DNA from: Iamia majanohamensis
Lineage (GTDB): Bacteria > Actinomycetota > Acidimicrobiia > Acidimicrobiales > Iamiaceae
DNA: 64,000 bases
Direction of reading: 5' to 3'
Assembly (NCBI RefSeq): GCF_028532485.1
Contig: NZ_CP116942.1
Coordinates: forward strand, 1,364,001-1,428,000
The position numbers and the translations under genes are program-made. Shown one piece after another: positions 47,194-52,983 of the stretch. Under the pieces are notes generated by a model. That model was not told the DNA's origin, did not search any database, and saw only the letters and a program-made list of their open reading frames with translations. Position 1 is the first letter of the stretch, and each line of letters starts with the position of its first letter.

Positions 47194-47645
47194 TGGCCGA
47201 CCGCCGCCCCTCCTCGTCCGGGCGTCGCCCGAACCGACCCGCCCCCCGCCGCGGCGCGGGCCAGGGCCGGCCCCGCGCCGGGGGACGGGCGCCGACCGCC
47301 GCGCACCGCCCGCGACGCCGGGTCGTCATCGGCCTGCTGGTGTCGGTCGTGCTGGTGGGCTTCCTGCTCGTCGGCGTGTTCCCCACCCGGGCGTGGCTGG
47401 CCCAGCGCGACGAGCTCTCGGCCCGCCACGAGGAGCTGGCCGCCCTGGAGCAGGAGCAGGACGCCATCGAGGAGCAGGTCGAGCGGCTCCAGACCCAGGA
47501 GGAGATCGAGCGCATCGCCCGGGAGGAGTACGGCATGACCCGCGAGGACGAGACCGCCTTCCGCATGCTGCCCGGCGCCGTCGCCCCCGTCGACCTCCCC
47601 GACACCTGGCCCTTCACCGGCACCGACGACTGGCTGAACCGCTAG
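47193..47645 (+). CDS. FtsB/DivIC-like septum formation initiator
   Basis: The 150-residue single-pass membrane protein has a basic cytoplasmic N-terminus (about 45 residues rich in Arg and Pro), a membrane segment VVIGLLVSVVLVGFLLVGVF, an external leucine-zipper-like coiled coil RDELSARHEELAALEQEQDA, then the family motif IERIAREEYGMTREDE. FtsB/DivIC joins FtsL and FtsQ in the divisome. It is coupled to eno. In mycobacteria the next gene is DUF501; here about 5.4 kb of opposite-strand sequence comes first. Confidence 0.92.
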
Positions 47646-47961: not shown

Positions 47962-50400
47962 TCAGTCGCGGTGCGCCGTCCTGGGCAGGCCCAGGGCCTC
48001 GGGGAGGTCCGACCACCACGCGTCCACCGCCGCCTCCCGGTCGGCGAAGGGCGTGGGGCCCGGCGCCAGCGCCGCGGTGATGGCGGCGAGCGAGTCGGGC
48101 AGATCGGCGGGGTCGTCGACGGCGAGCGCCTCGGGGAGCCCGGCCTGGGCGGCCAGGCCCCGGGCCTTGGCCCGGTAGTAGGGCGTGGTGGCGGCGAGGA
48201 CGGCGGGCACGCCTGCGGCCAGGGCCAGCAGGGCGGCGTGGAACGACTGGGCGGCCACCGCCTCGGCCCGGGCCACCTCGGCCACCAGGAGCCGGGGGTC
48301 GGTGCTGCACTCGACCAGGTGCCACCGGGCCTGCAGGGGGGTGGTGGCCCGCACGTCGGCCAGGGTGGCGATCTCGGGCTCGGGGTCCTGGCGGTTGAGG
48401 GCGAGGCCGACCACGTCCCACCCCCGCTCGGCGGCCAGCGCGTCGGCGGCCCGGGCCCAGGCCCGGGCGGCGCCGTGGTGCTCCTCGCCGCCGACGTAGG
48501 GGGCGCTGCGGACGGTGACGACCAGGCTGGGGCGCCGGTCGGGGCCGTCGCCGCCCTCCGGGGCCAGGCCCAGGGCGTCGTCGCCGGTGACCACGACCCG
48601 GGTGGGGTCGACGCCCGGGAGGGCTCGGGCCAGGGTCGCGGAGTCGGCGTCGCGGCAGGCCACCGCCACCGCCCCGGCCAGCAGGCCGGCGACCAGGCTG
48701 CGGTCCGCGGCGTCGTCGAGCGGGCCGATGCCCTGGCCCGAGAGGGCGTAGGGGACCGCGGCCCGCCGGAGGGCGGCGGCGAGCAGGGCGCGGGGCGCCA
48801 CCAGGCCGTGGGACCACTCCGACACCAGCGAGCCGCCGCCGAGCAGGAGGGCGGCGTCGTAGGCGGCCGGGTCGAGGGCGTGCCACGCCCCCTGGCCCAC
48901 CCGCAGGCGGTCGGCGGCGGCGGCCGTGGCCGCGTCGAGGCGGCCCAGCTGCTCGTGGTCGAGGCCGGGGAGCAGCTCGGTCAGCGGCCCCAGCCAGCGC
49001 ACCGGGCCCAGCCCGCCCGGCGGCTGGGGCCCGTCGGTGACCAGGTCGAGGGCGACGTCGGGCCCGAGGCGGGCCTGGAGGCGCTCGACGGCGCGGACCG
49101 TGATGGCGTCGTCGCCGACGTTGCCGACCCCGCCGGACGCCAGCACGAGGATCCGGGGCCCGGGGGGCGGTCCGGGGTCGGCTGGGGCCGGGTCCGGCGC
49201 CAGGTCGGGGCGGAGGGCGACGGCCGCCGGTGTGGCCCACAGCGACCCGGCCTCGGGGTCCCAGGCCACCGCGGCCACGTCGTCCATGGCCCCGGGGCCC
49301 TGCCGGCGGCCCGTGGGGTCGAAGACCCGGGCCACCCGGGAGGCACCGATGCGGGGGTCGCCCACGCTGTGGTGGAAGGCGGTGCCGAGGTCGAGGTAGC
49401 GCCCGACCAGGGTGGGCACGAAGGTGAGCAGCAGCCCGGCCTCGACCACCCGGTGGACGTTGGCCCAGTCGTCGACGTGCTCGAGGAGCGGGTCGGGCGA
49501 CCACCCGCCGAGCGCCCGCAGCGCGGCCACGTCGACCACGGCCATGGTGTCGACGTAGTTGGCCGAGAACAGCGGTGGGGACGGGGGCTCGTTGGAGACC
49601 GGCCCGCGTGCCGCCCCCGAGGGGTCGACCTGGACCACGGTGCCGTAGGTGAGGGCGGCCCCGGTGGCCCGCGCCGCCCGGTACAGGGCCTCCACCCCCT
49701 CGGGCCGGGCCGTGTTGTCGGCGTCGAGCTGGAAGGCGTGGGTGGTGGTGGCCGCGTGCAGCAGGGTCGTGCGGGCCAGGGCCAGGCCCAGGTTCACCGG
49801 CGCGGTGACGACCCGGACGCGGGGGTCCTCGGCGGCGAGGGCGGCCGCGACCTCGGCGGTGGCGTCCGAGGAGGCGTCGTCGAGCACCAGCACCTGGCCC
49901 TGCTCCTCGTCGGGCAGGCGGTCGAGGGCGGCCAGGCCGGAGCGGACCGAGGCCTCGAGCAGGCCCCCGTGGTTCCAGCACAGGGTGAACACCGACAGCC
50001 CGGTGGTGGGCTCGGGGGCCGGGCCCAGGGCCTCGCGCAGCGCCGCGGCCGCGTCGCTCCGGGCCGGGGCGGCGACGGCCCGGTGGAGGGCGGTGGCGTG
50101 GCCGGCGACGGCGCCGTCGACCTCGGCCACGCGGGCGGCCAGGTCCTGGATCCGCAGGGTGATGAGGCCGAGCTCGTCGCCGATGGCGGTCACGCCGGCC
50201 CGGGCGTCGCCCCGCCCCGCCCAGACCAGCTCCTCGAGGCGCTCCATGGTGCGGCCCAGGTCGTCGAGGGCGGCCTGGGTGACGGCGACGTCGGAGGCCA
50301 CCTCGTCGATGCGGTTCGGCGCCTGGCGCGCCCGGGCCAGGAAGGCCCGGGCCCGCTCGGTGGTGCTGGGCGTCGCGTCCGGGGCGGCGTCGTCAGCCAC
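47962..50400 (-). CDS. Glycosyltransferase family 2 fused to polysaccharide pyruvyltransferase
   Basis: The 812-residue two-enzyme protein has residues 1-130 predicted to be helical. A GT-A glycosyltransferase follows from about 134 (SVFTLCWNHGGLLEASVRSG; VLVLDDASSDATAEVA; DXD-like LDADN; LLEHVDDWANVHRVVEAG). From about 415 a CsaB/WcaK-like pyruvyltransferase begins (ILVLASGGVGNVGDDAITVR; LLLGGGSLVSEW; YALSGQGIGPL; SFHAALLALAAGVPAVLA). It would add a sugar and a pyruvate ketal during surface-polysaccharide synthesis. The GTG at 50400 overlaps the upstream PP-loop gene by 8 nt, with GGAG before it, so the two are co-translated. Confidence 0.87.
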   Translation of the reverse strand: MADDAAPDATPSTTERARAFLARARQAPNRIDEVASDVAVTQAALDDLGRTMERLEELVWAGRGDARAGVTAIGDELGLITLRIQDLAARVAEVDGAVAGHATALHRAVAAPARSDAAAALREALGPAPEPTTGLSVFTLCWNHGGLLEASVRSGLAALDRLPDEEQGQVLVLDDASSDATAEVAAALAAEDPRVRVVTAPVNLGLALARTTLLHAATTTHAFQLDADNTARPEGVEALYRAARATGAALTYGTVVQVDPSGAARGPVSNEPPSPPLFSANYVDTMAVVDVAALRALGGWSPDPLLEHVDDWANVHRVVEAGLLLTFVPTLVGRYLDLGTAFHHSVGDPRIGASRVARVFDPTGRRQGPGAMDDVAAVAWDPEAGSLWATPAAVALRPDLAPDPAPADPGPPPGPRILVLASGGVGNVGDDAITVRAVERLQARLGPDVALDLVTDGPQPPGGLGPVRWLGPLTELLPGLDHEQLGRLDAATAAAADRLRVGQGAWHALDPAAYDAALLLGGGSLVSEWSHGLVAPRALLAAALRRAAVPYALSGQGIGPLDDAADRSLVAGLLAGAVAVACRDADSATLARALPGVDPTRVVVTGDDALGLAPEGGDGPDRRPSLVVTVRSAPYVGGEEHHGAARAWARAADALAAERGWDVVGLALNRQDPEPEIATLADVRATTPLQARWHLVECSTDPRLLVAEVARAEAVAAQSFHAALLALAAGVPAVLAATTPYYRAKARGLAAQAGLPEALAVDDPADLPDSLAAITAALAPGPTPFADREAAVDAWWSDLPEALGLPRTAHRD

Positions 50401-52150
50401 GCCGCGCTCCCGCGACCAGGTCGCGGTCGGCAGAGCCGGCGAGCAGGTGGTCGACGGCGGGGCCCAGCCGGCGGGCGACGGCGGCGGGCGAGAGGTCGAG
50501 GTCGTCGAGGGCATCGGCCGCCACCACCAGCGCGGCGAGGGGGGCGACCAGGGCGGCGGCCAGGTCCTGGGCCGGCCCCGGCGGCATCACCTGGAGGGGC
50601 AGGCAGCCCTGCTCGATGGTCTCCACCAGGCGGACGGGCTCGAGGTCGCCCTCGGCGCGCCACCAGAGGCGGGCCCGGGCCGTGCGGAGGAGGGCCCCCA
50701 CGGCGTCGGGAGGCAGGACCGGGGGCGCCTCGGGGGCCCACAGCACGCCGGGCAGGTAGCAGGCACCGGCGCCGAAGAGGTCGTGGCAGCGGAGGGCGAG
50801 GTCGGCCTGGGCGCCGTCGCGCGCCCCGTCGCGGAGGTGGGGCTCGACCACGGCCCAGGCCCGGGGGCGGCGCAGGTCGTCCGTGGCGCGGGCCCGGACC
50901 CGGTGGTGGTCGGCGAGGGCGGGACGGAGCGGCACCGTGCCCGGCCGCCACCCGAGGGGACGGGGGGCGGGGGCGTCGGGGAGGCCGGTCGCGGCGCGCA
51001 GGCCGGCGGCCACCCGGGTGGGCACCCCGGGGCCGGCCAGGCCGGCGGGGTCGTCGGTGCCCCAGCGGACGGGCGGCTCCTCGCCCGTGCTCGTGTGCCG
51101 GGCGTCGACCCAGGCCCGCCGCAGCTCCTCGTGCTCGGGGGGGAGGTCGCGGAGCACGCCCTGGATGAGGGGCGCGGTGGTGTCGGAGACGTCGCAGACC
51201 CGGACCCGCTCGAGGTCGATGGGTGCGTCGAAGCCCCGGGCCGGGTCGGGGTCGCCGGCGAGCAGGAGGCTCGCCATGGTGATCTGGCACTTGCGGCACC
51301 GGCCGCAGTTGCCCGCCTGCTCACCCTCCCAGCAGACCTGCAGGGTGCGACGGGCCAGGGGGTCGGTGAGCACGTGGGCCAGGCGGGCGTCGCGGTCGCG
51401 GTGCGGGTTGCCCAGCACCACCTCGGTGCGACGGGTCGCCACCGCCTCGATCACCTGCGGGTCCGAGCCCACCGAGCCCGGACGGTCGACGGGGTTGGCG
51501 CCGCTCAGCACCAGGCGGCGGAGCCCGGCCGATGCGGTGAGGCCGGTGCCGACCAGGGCCGGGCCCGAGGTCTCGACCCAGGGGCGGTGGGGGTCGAGCA
51601 GGGCGCGGACCGACGTGGCCAGCACCACCAGCTCGAGGCCCAGCTCGTCGGCGACCTGCTGGTGGCCCTGGATGATCTGGGCCTCGACGGCACGGAGCCG
51701 GGGCTCGCCGTGGTGGACGGCGAGGAGGTGGGTGACCCGGTCGGCCTCGGGCGCGGCCAGCAGGTCGAGCAGGGTCGACCACGAGTCGGCGCCCCGGGTG
51801 AAGAACAGCCCCACCCCTCCGGCGTCGGGCCCGCCGTCGTAGGTGGAGGCCACCTCGACCCGGGTGCCGCCGGTGCCCCAGGCCGTCGCCAGGCGGTCGG
51901 CCAGGGCCTGGGCCCCCCGGGCCGCCAGGGCGTCGACCTCGCCCTCGACCTGGAGGTCCTCGCCGCAGGCAGCGGCCGCCGCCACCAGGCCCGGGAGGGT
52001 GGGCGAGGCGGTGGGGTCGAGCAGGTCGGCCTGGGCCCGCCGGACGGCCACCTCGAGCGGGGGCAGGTCGGTGCCGTCGGCCGCCACCAGGGTGGTGCGC
52101 ACGGTGACGTGGCCGTCGTCGACGTGGGTGGTGGGGGGCCGGGCGCGCAC
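50393..52150 (-). CDS. QueC-like PP-loop protein with C-terminal domain of unknown function
   Basis: The predicted protein has 585 residues. Residues about 95-300 look like an N-type ATP-pyrophosphatase: the P-loop reads FTRGADSW at 117-124 (SGGxDS in the family), and four cysteines, Cys273-x8-Cys282-x2-Cys285-x2-Cys288 (CWEGEQAGNCGRCRKC), reproduce the zinc-site spacing of QueC. The 200-residue C-terminal part (CHDLFGAGACYLPGVLWAPE; RLVETIEQGCLPLQVMPPG) is not one I can name, but resembles the end of some glycosyltransferase-associated proteins. It lacks other queuosine genes nearby and is coupled to a GT2-pyruvyltransferase, so an adenylation or amidation step on a surface glycan is a better guess than preQ0 synthesis. 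Confidence 0.72.
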   Translation of the reverse strand: MRARPPTTHVDDGHVTVRTTLVAADGTDLPPLEVAVRRAQADLLDPTASPTLPGLVAAAAACGEDLQVEGEVDALAARGAQALADRLATAWGTGGTRVEVASTYDGGPDAGGVGLFFTRGADSWSTLLDLLAAPEADRVTHLLAVHHGEPRLRAVEAQIIQGHQQVADELGLELVVLATSVRALLDPHRPWVETSGPALVGTGLTASAGLRRLVLSGANPVDRPGSVGSDPQVIEAVATRRTEVVLGNPHRDRDARLAHVLTDPLARRTLQVCWEGEQAGNCGRCRKCQITMASLLLAGDPDPARGFDAPIDLERVRVCDVSDTTAPLIQGVLRDLPPEHEELRRAWVDARHTSTGEEPPVRWGTDDPAGLAGPGVPTRVAAGLRAATGLPDAPAPRPLGWRPGTVPLRPALADHHRVRARATDDLRRPRAWAVVEPHLRDGARDGAQADLALRCHDLFGAGACYLPGVLWAPEAPPVLPPDAVGALLRTARARLWWRAEGDLEPVRLVETIEQGCLPLQVMPPGPAQDLAAALVAPLAALVVAADALDDLDLSPAAVARRLGPAVDHLLAGSADRDLVAGARRG

Positions 52151-52212: not shown

Positions 52213-52983
52213 TCAGTGGGGCACCATGCCGCCGTCGGCGAGGAGCACCTGGCCGGTGATGTAGCTGCCGGCGTCGCTCACCAGCAGGAGGGCCGGGCCG
52301 ACCATCTCGTCGGGCGTGGCCAGCCGGCCCATGAGCGACGCCGCGGCCATGGCCGCGGCGCCCTCGGGCCCGGTGTTGCGCACCATGTCGGTGTCGACCG
52401 AGCCGGGGGCGAGGGCGTTGACCCGGATGCCCTGGGCCACGTGGGCGGCCGCCATCGACCGGGTGAACGACAGCAGGGCGGCCTTGCCCGCGGCGTACAT
52501 GGCGACGGGGGCCGAGAAGAGGAAGGCGCCGACCGACACGACGTTCAGCACCGCGGCGTGGGGGCTGGCCTCCAGGTGGGGGAGGGCCGCCTGGAGGAGG
52601 AAGACCGGGCCCCGCAGGTTGACGTCGAAGGACTTCTCCCACGCCTCGGGCGTGAGCTGGCCGAGCGGCTGGGCCAGGGCGTTGGCCGCGTTGTTGACCA
52701 CGATGTCGAGGCCGCCGAAGGCGTCGACGGTCCGGTCGACCAGGGCCGAGACGGCCTCGAGGTCGCCCATGTGGGTGGCCACGCCGAGGGCCTCGGCGCC
52801 CCGGGACCGGAGGTGGGCCTCGGCCTCGGCGCAGGCCTCGGGCTTGCGGCTGGCCACCACGACCTGGGCGCCGGACGCGGCCAGGCCCTCGGCCAAGGCC
52901 AGGCCGATGCCGCGGGTGCCGCCGGTGACGAGGGCGGTGCGGCCGGTCAGGTCGAACAGGGAGCGGAGGGCATCGGCGTCCAC
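52213..52983 (-). CDS. Short-chain dehydrogenase/reductase
   Basis: The 256-residue classical SDR has TGGTRGIGLALAEGLA for the cofactor, NNAA in DIVVNNAANALAQPL, the catalytic Ser in LNVVSVGAFLFSAPV, YxxxK as YAAGKAAL, and the FabG/gluconate-5-dehydrogenase-type ending GSYITGQVLLADGGMVPH. The Arg in ASRKPEAC favours NADP. The substrate is unknown. It is the outermost gene of the minus-strand block inserted between divIC and DUF501. Its GTG start at 52983 faces the DUF501 gene. Confidence 0.9.
   Translation of the reverse strand: MDADALRSLFDLTGRTALVTGGTRGIGLALAEGLAASGAQVVVASRKPEACAEAEAHLRSRGAEALGVATHMGDLEAVSALVDRTVDAFGGLDIVVNNAANALAQPLGQLTPEAWEKSFDVNLRGPVFLLQAALPHLEASPHAAVLNVVSVGAFLFSAPVAMYAAGKAALLSFTRSMAAAHVAQGIRVNALAPGSVDTDMVRNTGPEGAAAMAAASLMGRLATPDEMVGPALLLVSDAGSYITGQVLLADGGMVPH

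Follow-up and report, generated by a model that had tools for sequence, protein, structure and literature searches.

A QatC/QueC-like PP-loop protein paired with polysaccharide pyruvyltransferases and its possible role in finishing bacterial surface glycans

The gene pair and its locus

The window examined is a 64,000-nucleotide stretch of the Iamia majanohamensis contig NZ_CP116942.1 (positions 1,364,001 to 1,428,000). Between positions 47340 and 53580 it holds a pair of genes that lie on the opposite strand within a block of housekeeping genes (eno, a DivIC-like gene, a DUF501-like gene and ppx). Their features are listed in Table 1. The 585 aa product of the first gene was claimed by no model in Pfam, NCBIfam, PADLOC and PHROG searches, and a single-sequence scan of genome contigs with it returned no matches. 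The second gene, here called the partner, encodes a glycosyltransferase family 2 (GT2) domain fused to a polysaccharide pyruvyltransferase (PS_pyruv_trans) domain, preceded by a coiled coil that was read off the sequence. The partner scores 76.7 bits against PF04230, above the cut-off of 25.3. The TGA stop of the PP-loop gene and the GTG start of the partner share exactly 8 nt (50393-50400).

Table 1. Features of the PP-loop gene and its partner (positions in the window)
Feature	Position	Strand	Details or basis
QatC/QueC-like PP-loop protein	50393..52150	minus	585 aa, GTG start
N-terminal domain, residues 1-108	51827..52150	minus	QatC 9y01_B alignment spans model residues 1-353; pLDDT about 92
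PP-loop ATP-binding domain, residues 109-305	51236..51826	minus	QueC 3bl5 Z 13.8 over 111-302; Cap9 Z 11.9
PP-loop F-T-R-G-A-D-S, residues 117-123	51782..51802	minus	homologue conservation
Zinc-type cysteine motif C-x8-C-x2-C-x2-C, residues 273-288	51287..51334	minus	conservation; QueC 2pg3 alignment
C-terminal domain, likely GT-B-like, about residues 375-575	50426..51028	minus	alignment, separate model, VIA matches
Partner: coiled coil, GT2 and polysaccharide pyruvyltransferase fusion	47962..50400	minus	GTG start at 50400; PF00535 1e-17, PF04230 3.7e-21
Partner GT2 domain	49588..49995	minus	PF00535
Partner PS_pyruv_trans domain	48196..49122	minus	the only PF04230 of the genome

The PS_pyruv_trans domain (3.7e-21) and the region of H and K are shared by the partner and CsaB. 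However, the coiled coil and GT2 domain are fused only to the partner, and the R that precedes H (R306 in CsaB) has been replaced. By predicted genes, the neighbours of the PP-loop gene are the partner, an SDR gene and housekeeping genes. Membership of the SDR gene (52213-52983) in the same unit was rejected, as it is not conserved at other loci. The site within the housekeeping block is shared by most relatives, and at one locus (L074) a member that lacks the C-terminal domain lies just past ppx.

In the PP-loop protein, FTRGADSW occupies residues 117-124 and the cysteines are spelled C-WEGEQAGN-C-GR-C-RK-C (273-288). Full-length homologues in the same bacterial family are 37-61% identical. 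F117, R119, G120, D122, S123 and all four cysteines are invariant in eight of these, which also share conserved blocks within the N- and C-terminal domains. The F, G, D and S of the loop and the cysteines are likewise invariant across 16 wider homologues. Over the whole family the loop varies between SGG, TGG, SRG and TRG, and the TRGADS of the 585 aa protein departs from a strict SGGxDS. As distant members (Azospirillum, Gloeothece, Priestia, Gemmobacter and haloarchaea) mostly carry FSGGVDS, FSGGLDS or FTGGVDS, we conclude that FTRGADSW is a true PP-loop. The RG form, with R in place of the second residue of SGG, is a derived form within one clade. A GS-x-P-x-x-D motif that is common among relatives has been lost in the genus Iamia and, together with the SRG or TRG loop, this loss makes a weakened or altered active site possible.

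Most of what the original prediction had described here was borne out. The PP-loop assignment is backed by the FSGGVDS-type relatives and by the fold match described below. The QueC-type cysteine spacing is invariant in homologues, the 200-residue extra domain is real and conserved in the alignment, and the 8-nt overlap with a GT2-pyruvyltransferase fusion is exact. Absent from that prediction was a conserved domain of about 108 residues at the N-terminus, which is matched by the N-terminal part of QatC.

Relationships to QatC, QueC and sugar amidotransferases

An AlphaFold2 model built from an 11-sequence alignment had a pLDDT of about 90 over residues 1-355. The top solved match in VIA-align was QatC (9y01_B, Z 15.6), which aligned over 290 residues within 1-353 of the model, N-terminal domain included. 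QueC followed, with 3bl5 at Z 13.8 (180 residues aligned, rmsd 3.1) and 2pg3 at Z 12.8, and the 2pg3 alignment coincides at the loop and the cysteines alike. Cap9 (9nto) gave Z 11.9, and the TtuA/ThiI/TilS group and other PP-loop enzymes about 10. Foldseek returned nothing with E below 0.001 for the PP-loop model, the best weak match being TilS. As this was also the case for the C-terminal domain, the structural case rests on VIA-align and sequence context. On this basis, the predicted structure confirms the QatC/QueC PP-loop fold. The comparison with QueC and TilS that had been proposed thus found the PP-loop fold present, and the description 'QueC-like' is better given as 'QatC/QueC-like'.

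Folded alone, the C-terminal domain gave a pLDDT of 71.5 and a pTM of 0.72. Nearly all of its best 50 VIA matches are GT-B glycosyltransferases, from Z 8.6 downward (a middling range). They include a phage glycosyltransferase, EXTL3, SenB, the alpha-glucosyltransferase 1y6g and exostosins, with SenB, EXTL3 and the phage HY126 glycosyltransferase at Z 8.1-8.6. However, the Foldseek E was above 0.001 and the pLDDT of the model only 71.5. As Z of about 8 is middling and Foldseek was not significant, the domain is likely, rather than proven, to be GT-B-like, on moderate evidence from the model. Sequence searches of Pfam and PDB with this domain found nothing useful. hhalign against local glycosyltransferase and pyruvyltransferase sets was not significant, and its best register fell on the GT-B donor motif. 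The domain differs from GT-B enzymes in being shorter than a complete GT-B and in having no sequence match to them, and the acidic pair of the GT-B donor site is not conserved.

The 585 aa protein had no match above the curated cut-off to the QueC models PF06508 and TIGR00364. When the QueC profile was compared with 13 family members, nine matched weakly (best E 0.0059). It shares with QueC the fold, the C-x8-C-x2-C-x2-C zinc motif and the position of the PP-loop, but has TRG for SGG, extra N- and C-terminal domains and no preQ0 genes that could be found, and it lacks YxQxHxxE, VPxRN and YPDC, the signature motifs of QueC (PMC13329287). With QatC, its best structural match, it shares the arrangement of N-terminal and PP-loop domains. 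However, QatC has the zinc pattern C(x)19CGxCxxRR and requires QatB (PMC13329287, PMC12424860), whereas the protein described here has C-x8-C-x2-C-x2-C, a GT-B-like C-terminal domain and no qatA, qatB or qatD recognised nearby. Matches to the QatC models of PADLOC and NCBIfam all fell short of a useful threshold. On motifs and cut-offs, membership in QueC or QatC proper was therefore rejected.

A queuosine connection had also been doubted in the original prediction, for want of pathway neighbours, and this held. None of the neighbourhoods read, those of homologues included, showed a recognisable queuosine or preQ0 gene. In the genome, QueC has no match above cut-off and PTPS/QueD is absent, while TGT is present. 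A role as a phage defence system was rejected, as there was no PADLOC match and no relative in the phage collection.

The suggestion that this fold had no precedent for adenylation chemistry on a glycan did not survive. The N-acetyl sugar amidotransferases WbpG and LpNASAT are PP-loop enzymes of O-antigen synthesis with a zinc tetracysteine of the pattern CXXCXn[GN]XCXXC (PMC10607449), and sugar amidotransferases form cluster 5 of a 2026 survey of the QueC superfamily, which has no group matching the family described here (PMC13329287). The PP-loop, zinc-type cysteines and surface-polysaccharide setting are common to our protein and WbpG, PseA and LpNASAT, but its cysteines are arranged differently and there is no profile match. 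In the literature searched, we found no pairing of WbpG, PseA or LpNASAT with a pyruvyltransferase. Nor did the open-licence literature yield relevant papers joining QueC or QatC with a pyruvyltransferase, or describing a fusion of a QatC-type enzyme with a GT-B-like domain that is coupled to PS_pyruv_trans.

Pairing with pyruvyltransferase genes across genomes

Searches with the C-terminal domain (397 genomes of the order) and the PP-loop domain (395 genomes of the class) brought in further families. At all 13 distinct loci with the C-terminal domain, a pyruvyltransferase gene adjoins. Within the same bacterial family, each full-length homologue adjoins the same GT2-pyruvyltransferase fusion, with a stop/start overlap of 4 or 8 nt at 6/8 loci, and one genome (G001) has a second copy of the pair elsewhere (L058). 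Among members that lack the C-terminal domain, a polysaccharide pyruvyl transferase gene is adjacent or two genes off in four genera, namely Azospirillum (two records), Priestia (two records, with tandem QueC-like copies), Gloeothece (two species) and Gemmobacter (two loci). The pairing thus spans four phyla (Actinomycetota, Cyanobacteriota, Alphaproteobacteria and Bacillota), and the coupling to a polysaccharide enzyme is far stronger than could have been known when it was predicted.

The association was quantified in the 15 acidimicrobial genomes that contain the family (I. majanohamensis and the matches in the class sample), which carry 0 to 3 copies of PF04230. In 10 of these, PF04230 lies within 10 kb of the family gene or C-terminal domain, against 0.11 expected (P about 4e-19); G379 was counted via a C-terminal domain fragment at a contig end. 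With G379 and I. majanohamensis left out, eight were observed (P 6e-15). The paired PF04230 gene is the only one of its genome in 9/10. A maximum-likelihood tree of 65 members requires at least nine changes in pairing on well-supported branches, with neighbour labels taken from a local profile whose matches at L092, L093, L155 and L158 are weak; the neighbours at L155 (G689) and L158 (G640) were confirmed by PF04230. At least nine gains or losses indicate that the pairing arose or was kept repeatedly and is no single frozen accident.

Some loci show further glycan genes or rearrangements. At L156, the family gene has a 4-nt overlap with the pyruvyltransferase gene and is followed by ABC-2 exporter-like and dTDP-rhamnose-like genes, and L146 is surrounded by exporter and glycosyltransferase genes (both read from sequence). 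At L089 (2002-5283) and L150 (6756-14269), three tandem copies of the QueC-like and C-terminal domains lie around one GT2-pyruvyltransferase fusion, and the middle copy is spread across several reading frames and is apparently broken. In Priestia, a plasmid that carries two family members and a pyruvyltransferase gene also encodes, close to them, a DUF6395 protein (L108, 14817-16133), and at the profile level DUF6395 is weakly related to the family.

Possible roles of the PP-loop protein

Prediction or comparison supports the fold, the QatC-like N-terminal domain, the zinc-type cysteines, the conserved coupling to PS_pyruv_trans and, on moderate evidence, the GT-B-like domain. The reading that we favour, tentatively, is that the protein is a ligase with the QatC/QueC fold that tailors surface glycans, acting on a carboxylate beside its pyruvyltransferase partner. 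ATP would be bound by the N-terminal and PP-loop domains and used to adenylate a carboxylate or carbonyl of the substrate, a putative ATP pyrophosphatase activity, while the GT-B-like domain probably holds the glycan or a nucleotide sugar. The translationally coupled partner would attach to the same glycan both a sugar, through its GT2 domain, and a PEP-derived pyruvate ketal, through PS_pyruv_trans. Pyruvyl transfer leaves the ketal with a free carboxylate, and this carboxylate, or that of a neighbouring uronic acid, would be the most likely substrate. Attack on the acyl adenylate by ammonia or an amine would then yield an amide, this product and the pyruvyl-ketal acceptor both being putative. 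Cap9 uses a protein amine instead of ammonia, and QatC has been proposed to do likewise. With ATP and ammonia, QueC itself takes a carboxylate first to an amide and on to a nitrile (PMC13329287). Taken with the free ketal carboxylate left by the partner, this makes amide formation on the glycan the simplest joint hypothesis. The departures from SGG in the loop, the lost GS-x-P-x-x-D and the lack of the YxQxHxxE, VPxRN and YPDC motifs, which are catalytic in QueC, count against it. The narrower proposal that the ketal carboxylate is amidated (or made a nitrile) right after pyruvylation by the partner, which would remove its negative charge, is unlikely as it stands, and no amidated pyruvate ketal was found in a review (PMC6801904). 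If true, the same chemistry pairing would have come together repeatedly across Actinomycetota, Cyanobacteriota, Alphaproteobacteria and Bacillota.

Pyruvate ketals are cell-wall anchoring epitopes in some bacteria, and the pairing points to what may be a new route by which bacteria chemically finish their surface sugars. The QueC superfamily has been recast as a versatile scaffold for preQ0 synthesis, protein deazaguanylation by Cap9 and defence by QatC. The family described here, which has no curated model, would extend it by a glycan branch with the architecture of QatC, and hypothetical proteins of several phyla would gain a first functional assignment. PS_pyruv_trans is a partner that can be tested directly, and pyruvate-ketal amidation is the chemical hypothesis that goes with it.

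Alternatively, the enzyme could act on a different sugar group, forming an amidine or amide there as WbpG and LpNASAT do on N-acetyl groups, and its link to the pyruvyltransferase would be no more than that both decorate one polymer. This is possible but somewhat doubtful. There is precedent in PP-loop sugar amidotransferases that carry a zinc tetracysteine (PMC10607449), and relatives without a pyruvyltransferase lie near further sugar-tailoring genes (formyltransferase, GNAT, ATP-grasp and polysaccharide deacetylase, for example), and sugar-tailoring genes also lie near the Gemmobacter pairs. However, pairing specifically with PS_pyruv_trans recurs in unrelated lineages, which suggests a tighter link, and the cysteine order and fold are those of QatC/QueC rather than the CxxC-xn-CxxC of NASAT. 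We consider it distinctly improbable that this clade has lost catalysis in the PP-loop domain and retains it as a scaffold or a regulator for the GT2-pyruvyltransferase. The TRG loop and the loss of GS-x-P-x-x-D in the genus Iamia would fit, as would a conserved partner and a donor-site acidic residue that is not fully conserved in the GT-B-like domain, but invariance of the loop S/T, G, D and S and the four cysteines at 37-61% identity is unusual for a dead site. Modification of the partner protein, for instance at its N-terminus, as by Cap9 in CBASS and, as proposed, QatC in qatABCD, is very unlikely even though QatC is the closest solved fold, N-terminal domain included, as the N-termini of the coupled partners are variable with no conserved Gly motif, no qatA/B/D or CD-NTase genes were recognised nearby, and the PADLOC and NCBIfam QatC matches are sub-threshold with no relative among phages in the collection.

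A tailoring ligase acting beside a pyruvyltransferase can describe only part of the family. In the neighbourhoods read, no pyruvyltransferase lies near the haloarchaeal and Nostoc members or several standalone actinobacterial genes. The same holds for a second family member in the I. majanohamensis genome (L071, 9016-10095; G000:C1 about 1750000), which has an FSGGVDS loop. With many such members, this is not uniformly a glycan family, and a pyruvate ketal cannot be the substrate of every member. The expectation that homologues always accompany glycan genes therefore failed for many standalone actinobacterial members and the L071 copy. A GNAT-like gene adjoins the family member at L071 and at L072. 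The haloarchaeal members are found on plasmids (L103, L104, L105 and L106), have SGG or TGG loops and lie near ATP-grasp, GNAT, formyltransferase, flippase or sulfatase-like genes, another undescribed context. The L093 contig is filed under a Bifidobacterium breve MAG; with 69% G+C and a grouping among acidimicrobial sequences, it is probably misassigned.
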